A DNA stretch of 37,577 nucleotides from SAR86 cluster bacterium AG-339-G14. GTDB taxonomy: Bacteria; Pseudomonadota; Gammaproteobacteria; Magnimaribacterales; AG-339-G14. The position numbers were made by a program, and so were the translations under genes. This document shows positions 2-7,241 of the stretch, in pieces; the stretch's first letter is position 1; the number at the start of each line of letters is the position of its first letter. The notes under the pieces were generated by a model. That model ran no database searches. It had not been told where the DNA came from and saw only the letters and a list, made by a program, of their open reading frames with translations. Location: positions 1 to 37,577 of the forward strand of contig QCAB01000008.1 of NCBI GenBank assembly GCA_003282105.1, in the 5' to 3' direction.

Positions 2-676
2 AAGGGTAGATCAAGAGTAGAGAATTTAGAGGAGCTTATTTCTGCAACTTCTGAATTTTTCTCTCTAGGCGAAGATAAAAACGATGAGAGGTCTCTACTG
101 GAGCTTTTTTTAGATCAAGCCTCTTTAGACGCTGGTGAAAACCAGGCAAATGAAAATGAAGATGCCATTCAAATGATGACCTTGCACTCTTCAAAGGGCT
201 TAGAATTCCCTTTAGTTTTTATCGCAGGCTGTGAGGAAGGATTGTTTCCGCACAGAAGATCAGCAGAAGATCCTAAACAATTGGCTGAAGAAAGAAGGCT
301 TTGTTACGTTGGAATGACAAGGGCGATGGAAAGACTTTATTTAACTCATGCGGAATCGCGAAATATTTATGGGATTGATAGTTTCAGCCCTGTTTCCAGA
401 TTTATCAAAGAAATACCAGAAGAGTTAATCTATGAAATAAGAGTTTCTACAGAAACAGAAATCAAAGATAAAGGATTTGAACCAAGAATAGTTGGCGGAA
501 CAGATCACAACGCAGGAAAGTTTTCTCTTGGAGATAGAGTAGTGCATAAAAATTTTGGCGAAGGGGTAATACTCAATTATGAGGGGGATGGCTCCAATGC
601 TAGAGTAGAAGTAAATTTTGATGATGGGGGAATTAAATGGCTGGTACTAAGCTTTGCGAATTTAGAAAAACTTTAA
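2..676 (+). CDS. uvrD: DNA helicase II UvrD, C-terminal part (5' end cut by the window)
   Basis: The frame is open from base 2, well before the first ATG at 173, so this is the last 224 residues of a longer gene. Superfamily 1 helicase motif V (MTLHSSKGLEFPLVF) and motif VI (EERRLCYVGMTRA) are intact. They are followed by the UvrD C-terminal extension and the Tudor-like tail (GDRVVHKNFGEGV to WLVLSFANLEKL). UvrD unwinds DNA 3' to 5' in nucleotide excision and mismatch repair. The tail that contacts RNA polymerase in UvrD/PcrA is well conserved, and the residues before motif V (DAIQ) also fit UvrD better than Rep. The last 40 bases overlap the start of the TRAP binding-protein gene. The product is clear; the N-terminal half cannot be judged. 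Confidence 0.95.
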   Translation, partial: KGRSRVENLEELISATSEFFSLGEDKNDERSLLELFLDQASLDAGENQANENEDAIQMMTLHSSKGLEFPLVFIAGCEEGLFPHRRSAEDPKQLAEERRLCYVGMTRAMERLYLTHAESRNIYGIDSFSPVSRFIKEIPEELIYEIRVSTETEIKDKGFEPRIVGGTDHNAGKFSLGDRVVHKNFGEGVILNYEGDGSNARVEVNFDDGGIKWLVLSFANLEKL

Positions 677-1737
677 TTTATTTTTTAGTTCTTTTCTTCT
701 TCGCTGCATGCTCTGAAGATACGTCTCAGAATGAGACAACATTTGAAAAAAAGAGTTTTTCTTGGACGTTGGTTACGACTTGGCCCAAAAATTATCCAGG
801 AGTTGGTCTTGGTCCGGAAAACTTTGCCAAATTAGTTGAGGAGATGAGTGATGGTAGATTAAAAATTAAGGTCTATGGAAACGGTGAGCTTATTCCAGCT
901 TTAGAAGTTTTCGATGCAGTTTCAAGAGGAACGGTTGAGATGGGGCATGGAGCATCATATTATTGGATTGGAAAATTACCTGTGGCTCAATTTTTCACTA
1001 CTCTTCCTTTTGGTTTAAACGCACAAGAGCGAAATGCCTGGCTTCACTATGCTGGAGGATTGGAGCTTTGGGAGAAAGCGTATGAACCATTCAATCTAAT
1101 TCCGATGGCTGGAGGAAACACTGGAGTTCAAATGGGAGGTTGGTTTAATAAAGAAATTAATTCTCTAGAGGATTTAAATGGAATAAGAATTAGAATGCCT
1201 GGATTGGCCGGCGAAGTTTTTTCAAGAGCTGGGGGAGAGGCAGTTTTAATGCCTGGAAGTGAAATTTTTACAAATCTTCAGACAGGAGTAATAGATGCTG
1301 CTGAGTGGATAGGCCCTTACAATGATTTGACTTTTGGATTTCATCAAGTGGCTAAATATTATTATTATCCAGGTTGGCAAGAACCTGGAGCAATGACGGA
1401 ATTTATTTTCAATCAAGAGGCTTTCAATGAGCTTCCAAACGATTTAAAAGCAATCGTCAGAACAGCTGCCAGGGCAGTGAATCAAGACATGTTGGATGAG
1501 TATACGGCTAGAAATAATCAAGCTTTGATTTCGTTGATAGAAGATCATAATGTAATTCTTAAAAAGTTTCCTGATGAAGTCCTTTACGAACTAGAAAGAA
1601 TCTCTAAAGAAGTATTGGAGGAGTTTGTAGAAGAAGATAAATTCGCGACACAGGTGTATCAATCGATCCTTGATTTCAAAAAAGGAGTCGCTAATTATCA
1701 TAAAATTTCTGAAGAAGCCATTTTCGATCTTAGATAG
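637..1737 (+). CDS. TRAP transporter substrate-binding protein, TakP-like (DctP family), probable lipoprotein
   Basis: This is the extracytoplasmic binding subunit of a TRAP carboxylate importer, 366 aa, which is normal for the family. The mature part follows the TakP/chloroaromatic branch: TTWPKNYPG, EVFDAVSRGTVEMGHG, the IRIRMPG stretch whose Arg usually binds the substrate carboxylate, and VIDAAEWIGPYNDL. TakP of Rhodobacter binds 2-oxo acids, so a keto or hydroxy acid is the best guess for substrate. The N-terminus has a hydrophobic stretch ending FFAAC, a weak lipobox, so the protein may be lipid-anchored rather than soluble. The ATG at 637 lies inside uvrD, 5 bases after GGGGGA; no later ATG/GTG/TTG precedes the signal peptide. 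The permeases (dctQM) lie 3.6 kb away on the other strand. Confidence 0.9.
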   Translation: MAGTKLCEFRKTLIYFLVLFFFAACSEDTSQNETTFEKKSFSWTLVTTWPKNYPGVGLGPENFAKLVEEMSDGRLKIKVYGNGELIPALEVFDAVSRGTVEMGHGASYYWIGKLPVAQFFTTLPFGLNAQERNAWLHYAGGLELWEKAYEPFNLIPMAGGNTGVQMGGWFNKEINSLEDLNGIRIRMPGLAGEVFSRAGGEAVLMPGSEIFTNLQTGVIDAAEWIGPYNDLTFGFHQVAKYYYYPGWQEPGAMTEFIFNQEAFNELPNDLKAIVRTAARAVNQDMLDEYTARNNQALISLIEDHNVILKKFPDEVLYELERISKEVLEEFVEEDKFATQVYQSILDFKKGVANYHKISEEAIFDLR

Positions 1738-2088
1738 TTAATTTTTTAGATAGGAAGGATTATCTATAGATACTTTTTCCTTGGAGAGTTCAAATAAAAA
1801 CTCTTCTAAAGAATCTTTACTAAAATTTTCATTTTTAATGTTTTCAATTAACTTTTGTTTTGATGAAATTTCCTCACCAAATAAGCTAAGGCTAAGATCA
1901 TTTAATTTTTTAGAAATTTTGTTTTCATCATTAATTTGTCTTTTTACAATTTTTAAAATATTTAAAGCAATTCTTACTTTAAAAATGTCCAATTCTTCAA
2001 GTTTCTCGAAATCTATTTGTTCAAAAATGAAATAATGCAGAACATCAATTAGTTCTGCTTTTGTAGGTCTATCAAAAAGATTTTTCAA
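1738..2088 (-). CDS. DUF6285 protein, LvaB-like partner of the kinase
   Basis: A 116-aa soluble, highly charged, probably all-helical protein with the pattern RPTKAELIDVLHYF and FKVRIALNILKIVKRQI, which I recognise as DUF6285. This family regularly sits beside APH-fold kinases and acyl-CoA dehydrogenases. Its start overlaps the kinase stop by 4 bases (ATGA), so the two are probably translationally coupled. Pseudomonas putida LvaB is a small protein of similar size that the kinase LvaA needs for activity; equating this gene with LvaB rests on size and position and is inference. Its stop codon abuts the stop of the convergent TRAP gene with no base between. No catalytic motif is visible. Confidence 0.75.
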   Translation of the reverse strand: MKNLFDRPTKAELIDVLHYFIFEQIDFEKLEELDIFKVRIALNILKIVKRQINDENKISKKLNDLSLSLFGEEISSKQKLIENIKNENFSKDSLEEFLFELSKEKVSIDNPSYLKN

Positions 2089-3068
2089 AATTCTTTATTT
2101 TTGATCATGTTCATTAAATCAAATTCCGTTTCAGACACTCTCCTGCCAATTGCAGCTTTTTCAATAGAATTTAAATTATTATTTAGGTGAGCAAAAGTTT
2201 GGATCATGCATATTACCCCCCATCTCAGAGATCCATATATTTGCCAAGCATCTAATTCAAAGCGATCCACTGTTTCAGATGAAATTGATTCATAGCCCTT
2301 TATTAGATCATCTAAGTCTCCTAAACCAGCAACTCTTTTAGAATTATTTCCAAATCGCCATGATTTCACGCAAGCCCAACTTAAATCCTCTGAGGGATCG
2401 CCAATGTGGGCTAGCTCCCAATCGATTATAGATTCAATAGAATTTTCTGAGACTATAAAATTTCCCAACCTGTAATCTCCATGAATTAAAACGTTATTTT
2501 TTTTCTTTATGTTTACTTTAGCTAAGTAATTGAAAACATACTCAAAGACTGGCTGCGGCTCATTGAAGGAAGAATAAACCTCATAAAGCTTGTTAAGAGA
2601 ATCATAAAAAGTCATTTTTTCTAATTCTTTTATTTCGCTTAAATCTGTCCGATGAATTTTTGCTAAAATCTCCCCAATTCTATAGGTAAGGTTTGGTCTA
2701 ATTTGAGCGAACTTTTCGTCTCTTAAAATTTTTCTAGGAATTGTTTCTCCTAAAATAAACTCCATTACATAGCCACTTCCAACCCCGCTTGATTCGTCAA
2801 ATTCTTTAATAATTTCAGGTACCGGTATATTGTTCTTCTTAACAATTTTCTGAACTTTAGCTTCTATTTTTTTTGTAATTGCTAATCGAGACTCTGAATT
2901 TTCAGGTGTTTTTCTTAAAACAAACCTTTTTCCATTTTTTAAAGTAATGTTATAAATATCTGCTGATGCACCTCCTGAAAGGGGATAGAATTTTTCAAAT
3001 TCAGTCTCAAGAAGGCTCTCGACGAATTTTTGAAGATCAGCCATTTTGTTGATTTTGAAGTGAAGCAT
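2085..3068 (-). CDS. APH-fold phosphotransferase (ACAD10/11 kinase-domain / LvaA-like)
   Basis: A kinase-fold protein with a glycine-rich loop (LSGGASADIY), an ATP-binding strand (RFVLRKTPE), the catalytic loop HGDYRLGN and the metal-binding IDWE. These fit the phosphotransferase family that forms the N-terminal domain of human ACAD10/11 and the separate LvaA kinase, which phosphorylates 4-hydroxyacyl-CoA. The ORF track starts 117 bases further upstream, deep inside the acyl-CoA dehydrogenase gene. I chose the ATG at 3068 because GGAGAG precedes it closely; an ATG at 3044 (MADLQKF) fits family alignments equally well but lacks a ribosome site. The gene overlaps the dehydrogenase upstream and the DUF6285 gene downstream. 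Antibiotic resistance is unlikely given this context. Confidence 0.85.
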   Translation of the reverse strand: MLHFKINKMADLQKFVESLLETEFEKFYPLSGGASADIYNITLKNGKRFVLRKTPENSESRLAITKKIEAKVQKIVKKNNIPVPEIIKEFDESSGVGSGYVMEFILGETIPRKILRDEKFAQIRPNLTYRIGEILAKIHRTDLSEIKELEKMTFYDSLNKLYEVYSSFNEPQPVFEYVFNYLAKVNIKKKNNVLIHGDYRLGNFIVSENSIESIIDWELAHIGDPSEDLSWACVKSWRFGNNSKRVAGLGDLDDLIKGYESISSETVDRFELDAWQIYGSLRWGVICMIQTFAHLNNNLNSIEKAAIGRRVSETEFDLMNMIKNKEF

Positions 3069-4248
3069 CTCTCTCTCCAAAATCCCAACCAGATCCATTA
3101 TTTTCGTAATTCTTGAGAATTCTTTTAGCAACAGACTGAATATGGACCTCATCTGGCCCATCATAAATCCTAGCCTCTCTAGCATGTCTATACATTAAGC
3201 TAAGAGGCGTATCATCCGTTAATCCTTTAGCACCATGTACTTGAATTGCCCTATCAATTACGTTGTGAAGCATCTGCGCTCCTAATACTTTAATAAGTCC
3301 AATTTCTATTCTTGCATCATCTCCTTGATCTATTCTTTTTGCAGCATCAAGAGTAAGTTGTCTAGAAGATTGAATTTCACACGCACTATCAAAAACAAAT
3401 TTCTGAAGGAGCTGCTTTTGAGTTAATGAAGTTCCAAAAGTTTCTCTTTCATGCATTCTTGAACAAAGTAAATCAAATGCTCTTTGGGCTTGGCCAAGCC
3501 ATCTCATGCAGTGAAAAATTCTTCCTGGGCCCAGTCGTTTTTGAGCTATCAAAAATCCATGTCCCCTAGGACCAAGTAAATTTTCCTCTGGAACTTCTAC
3601 GTTCTCATATTCAACCTCATAGTGGCCGCCATTTATCCCAAGAACAGGAGTTTCTCTAATGATTTTATAACCAGGATTATCAGTTGGAACAATTATCATG
3701 CTAAAGGCTCCATGACCTGGAGCGTCTAATTCAGTTTTACACATAACCGTTGTATAGGCCGCTCTAGAAGCACCCGTGGTGAACCATTTCCTTCCGTTAA
3801 TTCGCCATACGCCATTTTCTAAGACAGCTGTTGTTTTAAGTTGCGTAGGATCTGAACTAGCAACATCTGGCTCTGTCATTCCAAAACTTGGAAATATGTC
3901 ACCTTTAACCAATGGTTCAAGGTATTTCTCTCTCCAATTATCGGATGCAAATTCTCTTAACATGATTGAATCTTGAAGAGACACTGTTCCAAGACCTACG
4001 TTTGCATAAGCTGATCTTCCAATAACTTCATTGACATAGACGTATTCCATGAATGGCATGCCCCCGCCACCGATGTCTTTTGGATGTCCTAAGGCCCAAA
4101 TATTTTCATCCTTAGCCATTTGAGTAATACTTTTCAGTATTTTTTGAGATTCTTTTGAATGATTGGCTAATACGTCTTCAACCGGATAGATTTCTTCCTC
4201 TATAAAACTTTTTACTTTAGATCTAATTTTGGTCCAATCGTTTTTCAT
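3037..4248 (-). CDS. Acyl-CoA dehydrogenase, ACAD10/11 type (LvaC-like)
   Basis: A 403-aa flavoprotein with FAD-contact motifs FGMTEPDVASSDPTQ and KWFTTGASRAA and the C-terminal YDGPDEVH. In ordinary acyl-CoA dehydrogenases the equivalent of the last motif is YEGT with a catalytic Glu; here an Asp (about residue 363) takes that place, as in the ACAD10/11 branch. The gene starts 6 bases after the dipeptidase stop and overlaps the kinase gene that follows. Together with the kinase this is an unfused version of human ACAD11. In the Lva pathway the equivalent enzyme removes phosphate from 4-phosphoacyl-CoA to give an enoyl-CoA. Family assignment is firm; the exact reaction is inferred. Confidence 0.92.
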   Translation of the reverse strand: MKNDWTKIRSKVKSFIEEEIYPVEDVLANHSKESQKILKSITQMAKDENIWALGHPKDIGGGGMPFMEYVYVNEVIGRSAYANVGLGTVSLQDSIMLREFASDNWREKYLEPLVKGDIFPSFGMTEPDVASSDPTQLKTTAVLENGVWRINGRKWFTTGASRAAYTTVMCKTELDAPGHGAFSMIIVPTDNPGYKIIRETPVLGINGGHYEVEYENVEVPEENLLGPRGHGFLIAQKRLGPGRIFHCMRWLGQAQRAFDLLCSRMHERETFGTSLTQKQLLQKFVFDSACEIQSSRQLTLDAAKRIDQGDDARIEIGLIKVLGAQMLHNVIDRAIQVHGAKGLTDDTPLSLMYRHAREARIYDGPDEVHIQSVAKRILKNYENNGSGWDFGERDASLQNQQNG

Positions 4249-4254
4249 TTAAAA

Positions 4255-5343
4255 TCAGCTTTTAGAGAATTCTTTTACAGCTTTCCATACTCTGAGAATA
4301 TTTCCATTTAAAATTTGGTCTATTTCGCTCTCAGAATACCCTCTTACAAGAAGCTCTTCGATAAGATTTGGAAACTTTGACACATCATTAATGTCTTCAG
4401 GCAAAGGAACTTCACCATCAAAATCAGAACCTAAACCGACATGATCAATACCAACAAGATTTTTTACACGATCAATATTGTCTACTACATTTTTTACAGT
4501 CACTATCATGTCAGGATTTGATTTTGTGTCTGCTACAAAACCAGAGCCAAAGCAAATTTGTAGCACTCCATTGTTTTTAGCCAAAGCAATTAGCATCTCG
4601 TCTGAAACATTTCTCTCCCAACCAGGCGTAAAATGTCTTAATGAGCTATGTGTCGCAATTACGGGAGTTTCACTAATTTCCAAAACCTTCATGAATGCGG
4701 CATCTGAGACGTGGGAAATATCTATCATTACCCCTTGCCTATTCATTTCTTTGACAACTTCAAATCCAAAAGGACTGAGACCGTCTTTCCATCTCTTGTT
4801 CTCATCGTATGAACTATCGGATATGTGATTACTCTTAGAATGCGCTAAGGTAATGTAATTGACTCCAAGATCAGCAAAATATTTTATGTTTTCTAACTTT
4901 CCTTCTATTGGAGCTCCATTTTCGATTCCAAAGGCAATTCCTACTAAATTTTTATTCTCCTCTAAAATACTTATATCTGATGGATCTCTTATAAAAGTAA
5001 ATTTATCTGAATTATCTGAAATAATTTTATTCATCATTTCTATTAATTCTACAGCTAAGTCGAAAGAGGTGCCTTCTGGTTCAGTTCTTGCTGGAATATA
5101 AATTGCAAAAAAAGGAAGATTCAGACCGCCCTCTATGGCTCTTGGATAATCAAAGTGATAGGAAGAAGTTTTTGTTATGTCGTCGCTTACACCGGTATTA
5201 TTTTTTTGACGCCAAATTTGAAAGGGAGTGTCAATATGGGAATCTATGATAATTTTATTTTGACTATACTCTTTTGCTTTTTGACTAAAATCTTCTGCGC
5301 AAGAGACCAATAAAATGATTAAAAAAGTGAAAATTTTTTTCAT
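4255..5343 (-). CDS. Membrane dipeptidase (peptidase M19), lipoprotein
   Basis: A 362-aa member of the renal dipeptidase family, a TIM-barrel zinc peptidase that cleaves dipeptides, often with a D-residue. The metal ligands are visible in order: the HxD of DSHIDTP, the Glu of GIENGAP, then His residues in DISHVSD and IATHSSLR, and the Asp of GLGSDFDG. The N-terminus is a lipoprotein signal (hydrophobic run ending LVSC, then AED), so the enzyme should be anchored on the periplasmic side. It lies between dctM (43-bp gap) and the acyl-CoA dehydrogenase (6-bp gap), in the same direction, so it is probably part of their operon. Why a dipeptidase belongs with a carboxylate transporter is not clear. 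Confidence 0.93.
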   Translation of the reverse strand: MKKIFTFLIILLVSCAEDFSQKAKEYSQNKIIIDSHIDTPFQIWRQKNNTGVSDDITKTSSYHFDYPRAIEGGLNLPFFAIYIPARTEPEGTSFDLAVELIEMMNKIISDNSDKFTFIRDPSDISILEENKNLVGIAFGIENGAPIEGKLENIKYFADLGVNYITLAHSKSNHISDSSYDENKRWKDGLSPFGFEVVKEMNRQGVMIDISHVSDAAFMKVLEISETPVIATHSSLRHFTPGWERNVSDEMLIALAKNNGVLQICFGSGFVADTKSNPDMIVTVKNVVDNIDRVKNLVGIDHVGLGSDFDGEVPLPEDINDVSKFPNLIEELLVRGYSESEIDQILNGNILRVWKAVKEFSKS

Positions 5344-5386: not shown

Positions 5387-6748
5387 CTAAAAGATTAATT
5401 CTGGCAACAATGTAGCTAGAAAAGGAAAATACGCAACTAAACACAAAACCAGAATTTGAATCAAAATAAAAGGAAAAACGCCTTTGTACATTGACTCAGT
5501 ACTAATAGTTTCTGGAGTTACGCTTCTCAAATAAAATAAAGCAAATCCAAAGGGAGGGGTAAGAAAAGATGTTTGCAGATTGATTGCGAGCATCACTCCT
5601 AACCAGAGAGGATCAGCTCCCATTGCCATCAAGATCGGCCCAACGATTGGCACGACTATAAAAGTAATTTCAATGAAGTCTAAAATAAACCCTAAGACAA
5701 AAACTAAAAGCATTACCAAAAGCATTGATCCAAATAATCCGCCAGGTATGGCATTGAAAATTTCAGTTATTAGTTCTTCGCCTCCTAGCCCTCTGAAAAC
5801 TAAAGAAAAAATTGATGCGCCTATTAAAATTAAGAAGACCATAGAAGATATAAAGGCGCTTTGGGTAGTAGATTCCTTTAAAATTTTTAAATTCAATTTT
5901 TTGTGAATTAAAGCAATAATAATAGCGCCTAAAGCTCCTATACCGGCAGCTTCCGTGGGAGAAGCAATCCCTGTAATAATTGATCCTAGAACAGCAAAAA
6001 TAAGAAAGAAAGGCGGGATTAATGTCGAGATTAGCTTAAAAAAATTTTCGTGGTTTTGATTTCCATCTACAGTTAAGATTTCCTTTTTTAAAGAGAAAAC
6101 AAAATAGAGACCATACAAAAATACTAAAATTAATCCAGGTACTATAGCTGCCATAAATAAATCACCAACCGAAAGAGATTTGGCTATGTAGTTACCAATC
6201 TTTAACTGAGATTGTTGATAAGCAGTGGCTAATACGTCTCCTAATATTACTAATGCAATCGAAGGTGGAATTATTTGACCCAAAGTTCCTGTTGCAGCAA
6301 TGAGGCCGGTAGATACTTTTTCAGAATAACCCCTAGCTAACATTGCGGGTAACGATATTAAACCCATAGCTATGACTGTAGCGCCTACAATTCCTGTACT
6401 GGCAGCAAGTAAAGTCCCAACAAATAAGATAGAAATTCCAAGACCGCTTTTATATCTACTGAACAAGTTAGACATAGAAGTTAACAGTAGGTCGGCAACT
6501 TTAGATTTTTCTAAAATAACGCCCATAAATACAAATAATGGCACGGCAACGAGTGTCGCATTTGTCATAATCCCAAAAAGTCTATTTGGCATAGTTTCAA
6601 GCAGGTTTATTTCAAAGACTCCAAAGATACTCGCTACGAAAGCAAAAAGGATGGAAACACCTCCCAAAGTAAAGGCAACTGGGAATCCTAAGAGAAGACT
6701 TAAACAAATTACAAAAAACAATAACAATGGGAGAAATTCAATCATCAT
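5387..6748 (-). CDS. dctM: TRAP transporter large permease DctM
   Basis: The membrane subunit that carries out sodium-driven transport for a TRAP system, about 453 aa with roughly twelve hydrophobic segments. It shows GFPVAFTLGG near the N-terminus, GLIAATGTLGQIIPPS, the GIASPTEAAGIGA signature and SFLTPPFGFALFYLR near the end, all typical of the mannitol/chloroaromatic (FcbT3/TakM) branch. That branch matches the TakP-like binding protein at 637. The track starts at a TTG (6772) inside dctQ; the tandem ATGs at 6748 and 6745, overlapping the dctQ stop by 11 or 8 bases, are better. Operon with dctQ upstream and the dipeptidase downstream. Confidence 0.93.
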   Translation of the reverse strand: MMIEFLPLLLFFVICLSLLLGFPVAFTLGGVSILFAFVASIFGVFEINLLETMPNRLFGIMTNATLVAVPLFVFMGVILEKSKVADLLLTSMSNLFSRYKSGLGISILFVGTLLAASTGIVGATVIAMGLISLPAMLARGYSEKVSTGLIAATGTLGQIIPPSIALVILGDVLATAYQQSQLKIGNYIAKSLSVGDLFMAAIVPGLILVFLYGLYFVFSLKKEILTVDGNQNHENFFKLISTLIPPFFLIFAVLGSIITGIASPTEAAGIGALGAIIIALIHKKLNLKILKESTTQSAFISSMVFLILIGASIFSLVFRGLGGEELITEIFNAIPGGLFGSMLLVMLLVFVLGFILDFIEITFIVVPIVGPILMAMGADPLWLGVMLAINLQTSFLTPPFGFALFYLRSVTPETISTESMYKGVFPFILIQILVLCLVAYFPFLATLLPELIF

Positions 6749-7241
6749 TAAAGTAAGAAAGAATGTTTGCAAAACTTTGCATGAGAAGCAGAACGGCAGA
6801 AACTAAAATAATTGATTTATAAAGGTATACAAATGGCAAACCTCCAGGTTCAGCAGAAGTTTCTTTTATTGACCAAGAAAATGAAACGTAATCGATTGAT
6901 AAAATTAAAATGACCCATAACATAGGCTGCAAGAAAAAAATATTACCCAAAAGATTAATATTTTTTTTTCTTCTTTTGGAAAATTTTCTATAAAAGATAT
7001 CTACTCTTACATGTTGATCTTTGTTAAAAGCATATGCAGCACAAACTAGAAAAGTGATCCCGTGACAATAAATTATAAGCTCCTGTAGGCTTAATATTCC
7101 TATTCCAAAAACATATCTTGAAATAACGACATAAGCTGTCAAAAAGATCATTAGAACCATAAACCAAGTACTTATTTTGCCAAGAATAGAGGGAAAAAAT
7201 ATTAGTATAGATTGGCAAATTTGGTTAATATTTTTTATCAT
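6738..7241 (-). CDS. dctQ: TRAP transporter small permease DctQ
   Basis: A 167-aa protein with four hydrophobic segments, the size of a DctQ/TakQ subunit, which scaffolds the large permease in the inner membrane. Family marks are SRYVFGIGILSLQEL, the DQHVRVDIFYRKFS loop and SAEPGGLPFVYLYKS. It is the first gene of the run on - that continues through dctM to the DUF6285 gene. Only 21 bp separate its ATG from that of yaaA on the other strand, so the promoters of both must overlap each other or the opposite gene. The 3' end overlaps dctM, a normal coupling for these subunits. Confidence 0.92.
   Translation of the reverse strand: MIKNINQICQSILIFFPSILGKISTWFMVLMIFLTAYVVISRYVFGIGILSLQELIIYCHGITFLVCAAYAFNKDQHVRVDIFYRKFSKRRKKNINLLGNIFFLQPMLWVILILSIDYVSFSWSIKETSAEPGGLPFVYLYKSIILVSAVLLLMQSFANILSYFNDD

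Follow-up and report, generated by a model that had tools for sequence, protein, structure and literature searches.

Closest described systems

Growth of Pseudomonas on levulinate requires each of lvaA, lvaB and lvaC, according to a second-hand account (PMC6692424), in which the small protein LvaB (12 kDa) is also pulled down with LvaA and both are implicated in the phosphorylation of 4HV-CoA. In mammals, ACAD10 and ACAD11 pair a kinase with an acyl-CoA dehydrogenase (ACAD) in one fused polypeptide. The residues R626, H634 and R637 are needed in these enzymes, as found by mutation, and modelling of ACAD11 places them in salt bridges to the 4-phosphate, D753 being the catalytic Asp (PMC12440821). 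The identity of LvaC to ACAD10 and ACAD11 has been given as 62% and 56%, respectively (PMC11342911), but between the LvaC used here and the mouse ACAD11 domain it is 33.9%, which is at odds with those figures. A further cluster, on pTT27 of Thermus thermophilus HB8 (TTH_RS10075-10065), encodes an ACAD, a kinase and a protein of the family DUF6285, which is a family without known function and of which no mention was found in the papers searched.

The stretch of DNA analyzed here (37,577 nucleotides, called the window) comes from a SAR86 genome (867,762 bases, about 70% complete) and carries on its minus strand, from 4248 to 1738, three overlapping genes for an ACAD, an APH-fold kinase and a DUF6285 protein; the Thermus cluster has these families too, and in this order. 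These genes probably constitute an LvaABC-type module, which would convert 4-hydroxyacyl-CoA to 4-phosphoacyl-CoA and this to 2-enoyl-CoA, with LvaB as the partner of the kinase.

Layout of the three genes

The features are collected in Table 1. The ACAD product has the N, M and C domains of Pfam (C-terminal domain, 135.3 bits), the kinase product matches Pfam APH with 102.6 bits and the smallest product matches PF19802 (DUF6285) with 40.3 bits against a cut-off of 28.1. The overlap of the genes and the motifs YDGPDEVH in the ACAD and HGDYRLGN and IDWE in the kinase, pointed out in the initial annotation, are all present, with one revision: the kinase open reading frame had been listed as 2085-3185, but its true start is probably the ATG at 3044, because the SAR86 orthologues all align from the M of "MADLQKF...". 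Counted from this start, 8 bases are shared by the ACAD and kinase genes and 4 (TTGA) by the kinase and DUF6285 genes; in lvaABC the kinase and lvaB genes likewise overlap by 4 bases. The order of the window differs from that of lvaABC in that the ACAD precedes the kinase.

Table 1. Genes of the predicted module and its neighbours in the window
Feature	Position	Strand	Size and basis
TRAP solute-binding protein DctP, convergent with the module	637..1737	+	PF03480 202.6 bits; TakP/ketoacid-binder group
DUF6285/LvaB-family protein	1738..2088	-	116 aa; PF19802, LvaB profile match, AlphaFold2
APH-fold kinase, LvaA clade	2085..3044	-	319 aa; Pfam APH, orthologue alignment, tree
Asp-type acyl-CoA dehydrogenase (predicted LvaC/ACAD10/11-like 4-phosphoacyl-CoA lyase)	3037..4248	-	403 aa; Pfam, PDB match, motifs, tree
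M19 membrane-dipeptidase family protein, lipoprotein-like N-terminus	4255..5343	-	PF01244 314.2 bits; nearest PDB relative renal dipeptidase
TRAP transporter large permease DctM	5387..6772	-	PF06808 272.3 bits; in string in the window's genus only
TRAP transporter small permease DctQ	6738..7241	-	PF04290 59.2 bits; in string in the window's genus only

Among 18 SAR86 loci, which were picked through their DUF6285 match, 15 have the ACAD, kinase and DUF6285 genes contiguous and in unchanged order. Because this order is kept in differing genomic surroundings and between diverged sequences (amino acid identity down to 76% for the ACAD and 45% for the kinase), the grouping of the three genes is far from chance.

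DUF6285 is the family of LvaB

The link between DUF6285 and LvaB had been put forward as an inference and is now borne out. A Pseudomonas aeruginosa plasmid carries the whole lva operon (PrpR-type regulator, kinase, lvaB, ACAD, SDR, acyl-CoA synthetase, DUF485 and symporter), and the protein annotated there as LvaB matches Pfam DUF6285 with 85.3 bits against the cut-off of 28.1, a comparison made by profile in place of structure, and the DUF6285 family thus contains LvaB. This link is easy to see once the NCBI naming of LvaB and the Pfam model are put together.

DUF6285 is present in 26 of 299 sampled genomes of Pseudomonadota, and a survey of its neighbours, which had been proposed with the initial annotation, revealed a related kinase adjacent or fused to it in all 24 Pseudomonadota loci inspected in full. 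Natural fusions of kinase and DUF6285 were found in 11 loci in all. The adjacency and the fusions fit the published evidence that LvaB is pulled down with LvaA and that growth on levulinate requires lvaABC, and the 116-residue protein of the window is a probable partner subunit of the kinase. The same linkage bears on another reading, that the kinase is a phosphotransferase of antibiotics or other small molecules with DUF6285 as a chance neighbour. The APH fold and weak matches to the APH(3') and macrolide kinases of NCBIfam speak for such an activity, but these matches lie far below the curated cut-offs (at best 39.8 of 205 bits) and, with 24 linked loci out of 24 in addition to the fusions, we consider it extremely improbable. 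The analysis offers DUF6285 a role that can be tested, namely that of the LvaB-type partner to hydroxyacyl-CoA kinases.

The AlphaFold2 model of the window's DUF6285 protein is all-helical and fairly confident (pLDDT 84.8). A fold search of the PDB with this model gave zero matches at E<=0.001, and a profile search of the PDB with DUF6285 gave matches at chance level only; the predicted helical arrangement may be one for which no structure has been solved yet. Another model was made of a kinase-DUF6285 fusion that occurs naturally in Streptomyces adustus (pTM 0.80, the DUF6285 half being less certain), and its best PDB fold match is a 25-hydroxysteroid kinase, which recalls that alcohols of other kinds can be substrates of this kinase fold.

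Two lineages of kinases

The kinase of the window keeps the catalytic HGD...N and DWE. In the kinase tree a split with 100/100 support separates 60 kinases, including that of the window and LvaA, from 10 kinases including that of mouse ACAD11, although sampling has contributed to this split, as many loci in the tree were chosen through DUF6285. In the LvaA clade DUF6285 occurs in the retrieved locus of every member except L158, mostly as a neighbour or fusion partner of the kinase; L158 adjoins a short open reading frame without a DUF6285 match. On the ACAD11 side none of the 10 kinases has DUF6285 as its own neighbour. Hydroxyacyl-CoA kinases would therefore form two lineages, one partnered by LvaB and one that is ACAD10/11-like and lacks LvaB, the window's kinase belonging to the former and that of mouse ACAD11 to the latter. 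The Arg near the alphaC Glu that is proposed to contact CoA in ACAD11 is conserved neither in the window's kinase nor in LvaA, which counts against the LvaABC-type reading.

Some kinase-DUF6285 pairs, a part of which are kinase-DUF6285 fusions, adjoin an ACAD of the Glu type (FVHQNRIRQAASSLGA ... ITEGSEEIQ) that has neither the Asp nor the phosphate pocket (L034, L035, L036, L039, L041, L042, L044, L045, L054-L056 and L160). These pairs also count against the LvaABC-type reading, and because of them the pair of kinase and LvaB may feed a different second step, that is, serve more than one pathway.

Active site and clade of the dehydrogenase

The best PDB relative of the window's ACAD by sequence is mouse ACAD11 (8v3u). 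The window's ACAD has the catalytic Asp as D363, in YDGPDEVH, together with R238, H246 and R249 (RLGPGRIFHCMR), so that all four equivalents of R626, H634, R637 and D753 are present; they are common to the SAR86 orthologues, to LvaC, with which the HCMR motif is shared, and to ACAD10/11-like bacterial proteins. In the alignment, the catalytic Asp and the R/H/R residues co-occur in every enzyme of the LvaC/ACAD11 type whose C-terminus lies inside the fetched DNA and are missing in the other ACADs.

The Asp-type proteins form a single clade in the ACAD tree (98/96). Within it the window's ACAD belongs to a group of its own (100/99) with members from SAR86, Halieaceae, Myxococcota, Actinomycetota and Chloroflexota, apart from the ACAD11 group and from the LvaC group, in which LvaC is joined by the ACAD of Thermus and others. 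It shares 32% of its residues with LvaC and 36% with the mouse ACAD11 domain, and because of these low values and the separate clade, which weigh against the LvaABC-type reading, its substrate may differ from those of LvaC and ACAD11. The Thermus cluster differs also in that a histidine phosphatase follows the three genes and further acyl-CoA genes flank them.

The comparison with LvaA, LvaC and ACAD11, likewise proposed at the outset and made here by trees, thus places the kinase with LvaA and the ACAD in the Asp-type clade but outside both named groups. The resemblance to LvaABC noted in the initial annotation is upheld by the LvaB membership of DUF6285, the clade of the kinase and the Asp and phosphate-pocket residues of the ACAD. 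The label "unfused ACAD10/11-like" is dropped, because the kinase stands opposite that of mouse ACAD11 in the 100/100 split and the ACAD forms its own clade; in addition, kinase and ACAD are separate open reading frames. Judged by these trees, the genes are properly described as an LvaABC-like set with its own ACAD.

Co-inheritance in SAR86

In 121 genomes of the SAR86 order, the ACAD and DUF6285 are both found in 53 and neither in 62, while the ACAD alone occurs in 3 and DUF6285 alone in 3 (Fisher's test, 9e-27, a figure that overstates the evidence since the genomes are related). More telling than this figure are genomes of the family to which the window belongs that lack both, such as G326 and G334 (each 93% complete). 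G360 and G375 still keep the ACAD although it is encoded elsewhere in their genomes. Furthermore, where a related ACAD stands alone outside SAR86, DUF6285 was found elsewhere in the genome in nine of nine genomes tested, with a kinase adjoining or fused to it in eight of them.

These observations bear on the view that an ordinary acyl-CoA dehydrogenase and a kinase acting on something unrelated are mere neighbours. The ACAD and APH families are broad and the best NCBIfam matches are all below cut-offs, as this view would have it, but the Asp in place of Glu, the R/H/R pocket, the overlap of the genes and their joint loss and retention across SAR86, even where ACAD and kinase no longer adjoin, make it very unlikely.

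Genomic neighbourhood

In the window's genus the genes form the string dctQ-dctM-M19-ACAD-kinase-DUF6285, with dctP convergent. The M19 gene, which lies 6 bases upstream of the ACAD, between it and the TRAP genes, is found there in this genus only. The nearest PDB relatives of DctP are 4pet, 5cm6, 7ug8 (a ketoacid-binding protein) and 2hzk, and its closeness to ketoacid binders suggests small keto or hydroxy acids as ligands. In other SAR86 genera the surroundings of the three genes are unrelated to these: the module follows the genes for homoserine dehydrogenase, thrC, a peptide release factor and lysS, or lies beside SDRs and an acyl-CoA ligase.

Unlike in the lva operon, the module is not adjoined by lvaR, lvaD, lvaE or lvaFG. 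No lvaD (reductase) or lvaE (ligase) homologue was found in the cluster, where the neighbours are the M19 peptidase, the TRAP genes, a YaaA-like gene and an enoyl-CoA hydratase, and the lack of these two beside the module is another point against the LvaABC-type reading. The genome of the window has 6 matches to AMP-binding ligases, 3 to thiolases and 12 to ACADs. PF00725, the classical 3-hydroxyacyl-CoA dehydrogenase, was found in none of seven genomes of the window's genus (that of the window and six others), two of which are more than 90% complete, so that an enzyme of some other family would have to carry out this step of beta-oxidation.

Proposed function

The analysis shows to which families the proteins belong, that the residues of catalysis and of the phosphate pocket are conserved, that the genes are coupled and inherited together, and that natural fusions link kinase and LvaB; the reactions, an obligate role for LvaB and the nature of the substrate are inferred. 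In the proposed pathway, the LvaA-clade kinase with its DUF6285 partner would phosphorylate the 4-hydroxyl of a 4-hydroxyacyl-CoA. The Asp-type ACAD would then eliminate the phosphate without net oxidation, by means of FAD, D363 and the R238/H246/R249 pocket, and the resulting 2-enoyl-CoA would enter beta-oxidation. For the window's genus, the TRAP transporter next to the module probably imports the substrate, which would be a small hydroxy or keto acid; oxidized lipids, suggested originally, found no support in this analysis.

A variant of this proposal keeps the chemistry and changes the substrate to an acyl-CoA that is bulkier or carries different substituents (isoprenoid, steroid side chain or 5-hydroxyacyl) in place of a simple 4-hydroxy fatty acid. 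The separate clade of the window's ACAD would fit it, as would the sister clade, weakly joined (83/62), some members of which sit in SDR-rich clusters, a Rhodococcus relative (L030), which adjoins CoA-transferases, a lipid-transfer protein and a Rieske protein, and the 25-hydroxysteroid kinase match of the related fusion. However, the phosphate pocket has the residues that were tested in 4-phosphoacyl-CoA enzymes, LvaA is a member of the kinase's clade and the type of the neighbouring transporter points to small acids, so this variant is considered rather unlikely. With somewhat less doubt, but still tentatively, it is suggested that the clade of the window's ACAD is a biochemically distinct class of phosphate-eliminating ACADs with its own hydroxyacyl-CoA substrate and an LvaB-dependent kinase; DUF6285 would then be the general marker and activator of one of two ancient lineages of hydroxyacyl-CoA kinases.

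The LvaABC-type reading predicts that many SAR86 bacteria, which are abundant and have genomes of about 1.2 Mb, keep the three genes for a breakdown of the 4-hydroxy-acid type, and such a breakdown would suggest that they draw on a marine carbon source that is not normally counted among theirs.

Related combinations of dehydrogenase and kinase

Another clade of Asp-type ACADs, with HHAMR or HHCMR motifs, is paired with kinases of the DUF6285-less kind (L031, L033, L090 and L091), and two of these loci (L090 and L091) sit in SDR-rich clusters. When lvaC was sought in genus g15 (presumed to be Pseudomonas) with a Massilia ACAD, only members of the HHAMR clade in SDR-rich clusters, not lva, were obtained. 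Moreover, in Roseivivax (L032:4965-7233) an ACAD of the LvaC clade is paired with a kinase of the DUF6285-less clade, and the lineages of kinases and ACADs are therefore not strictly matched.
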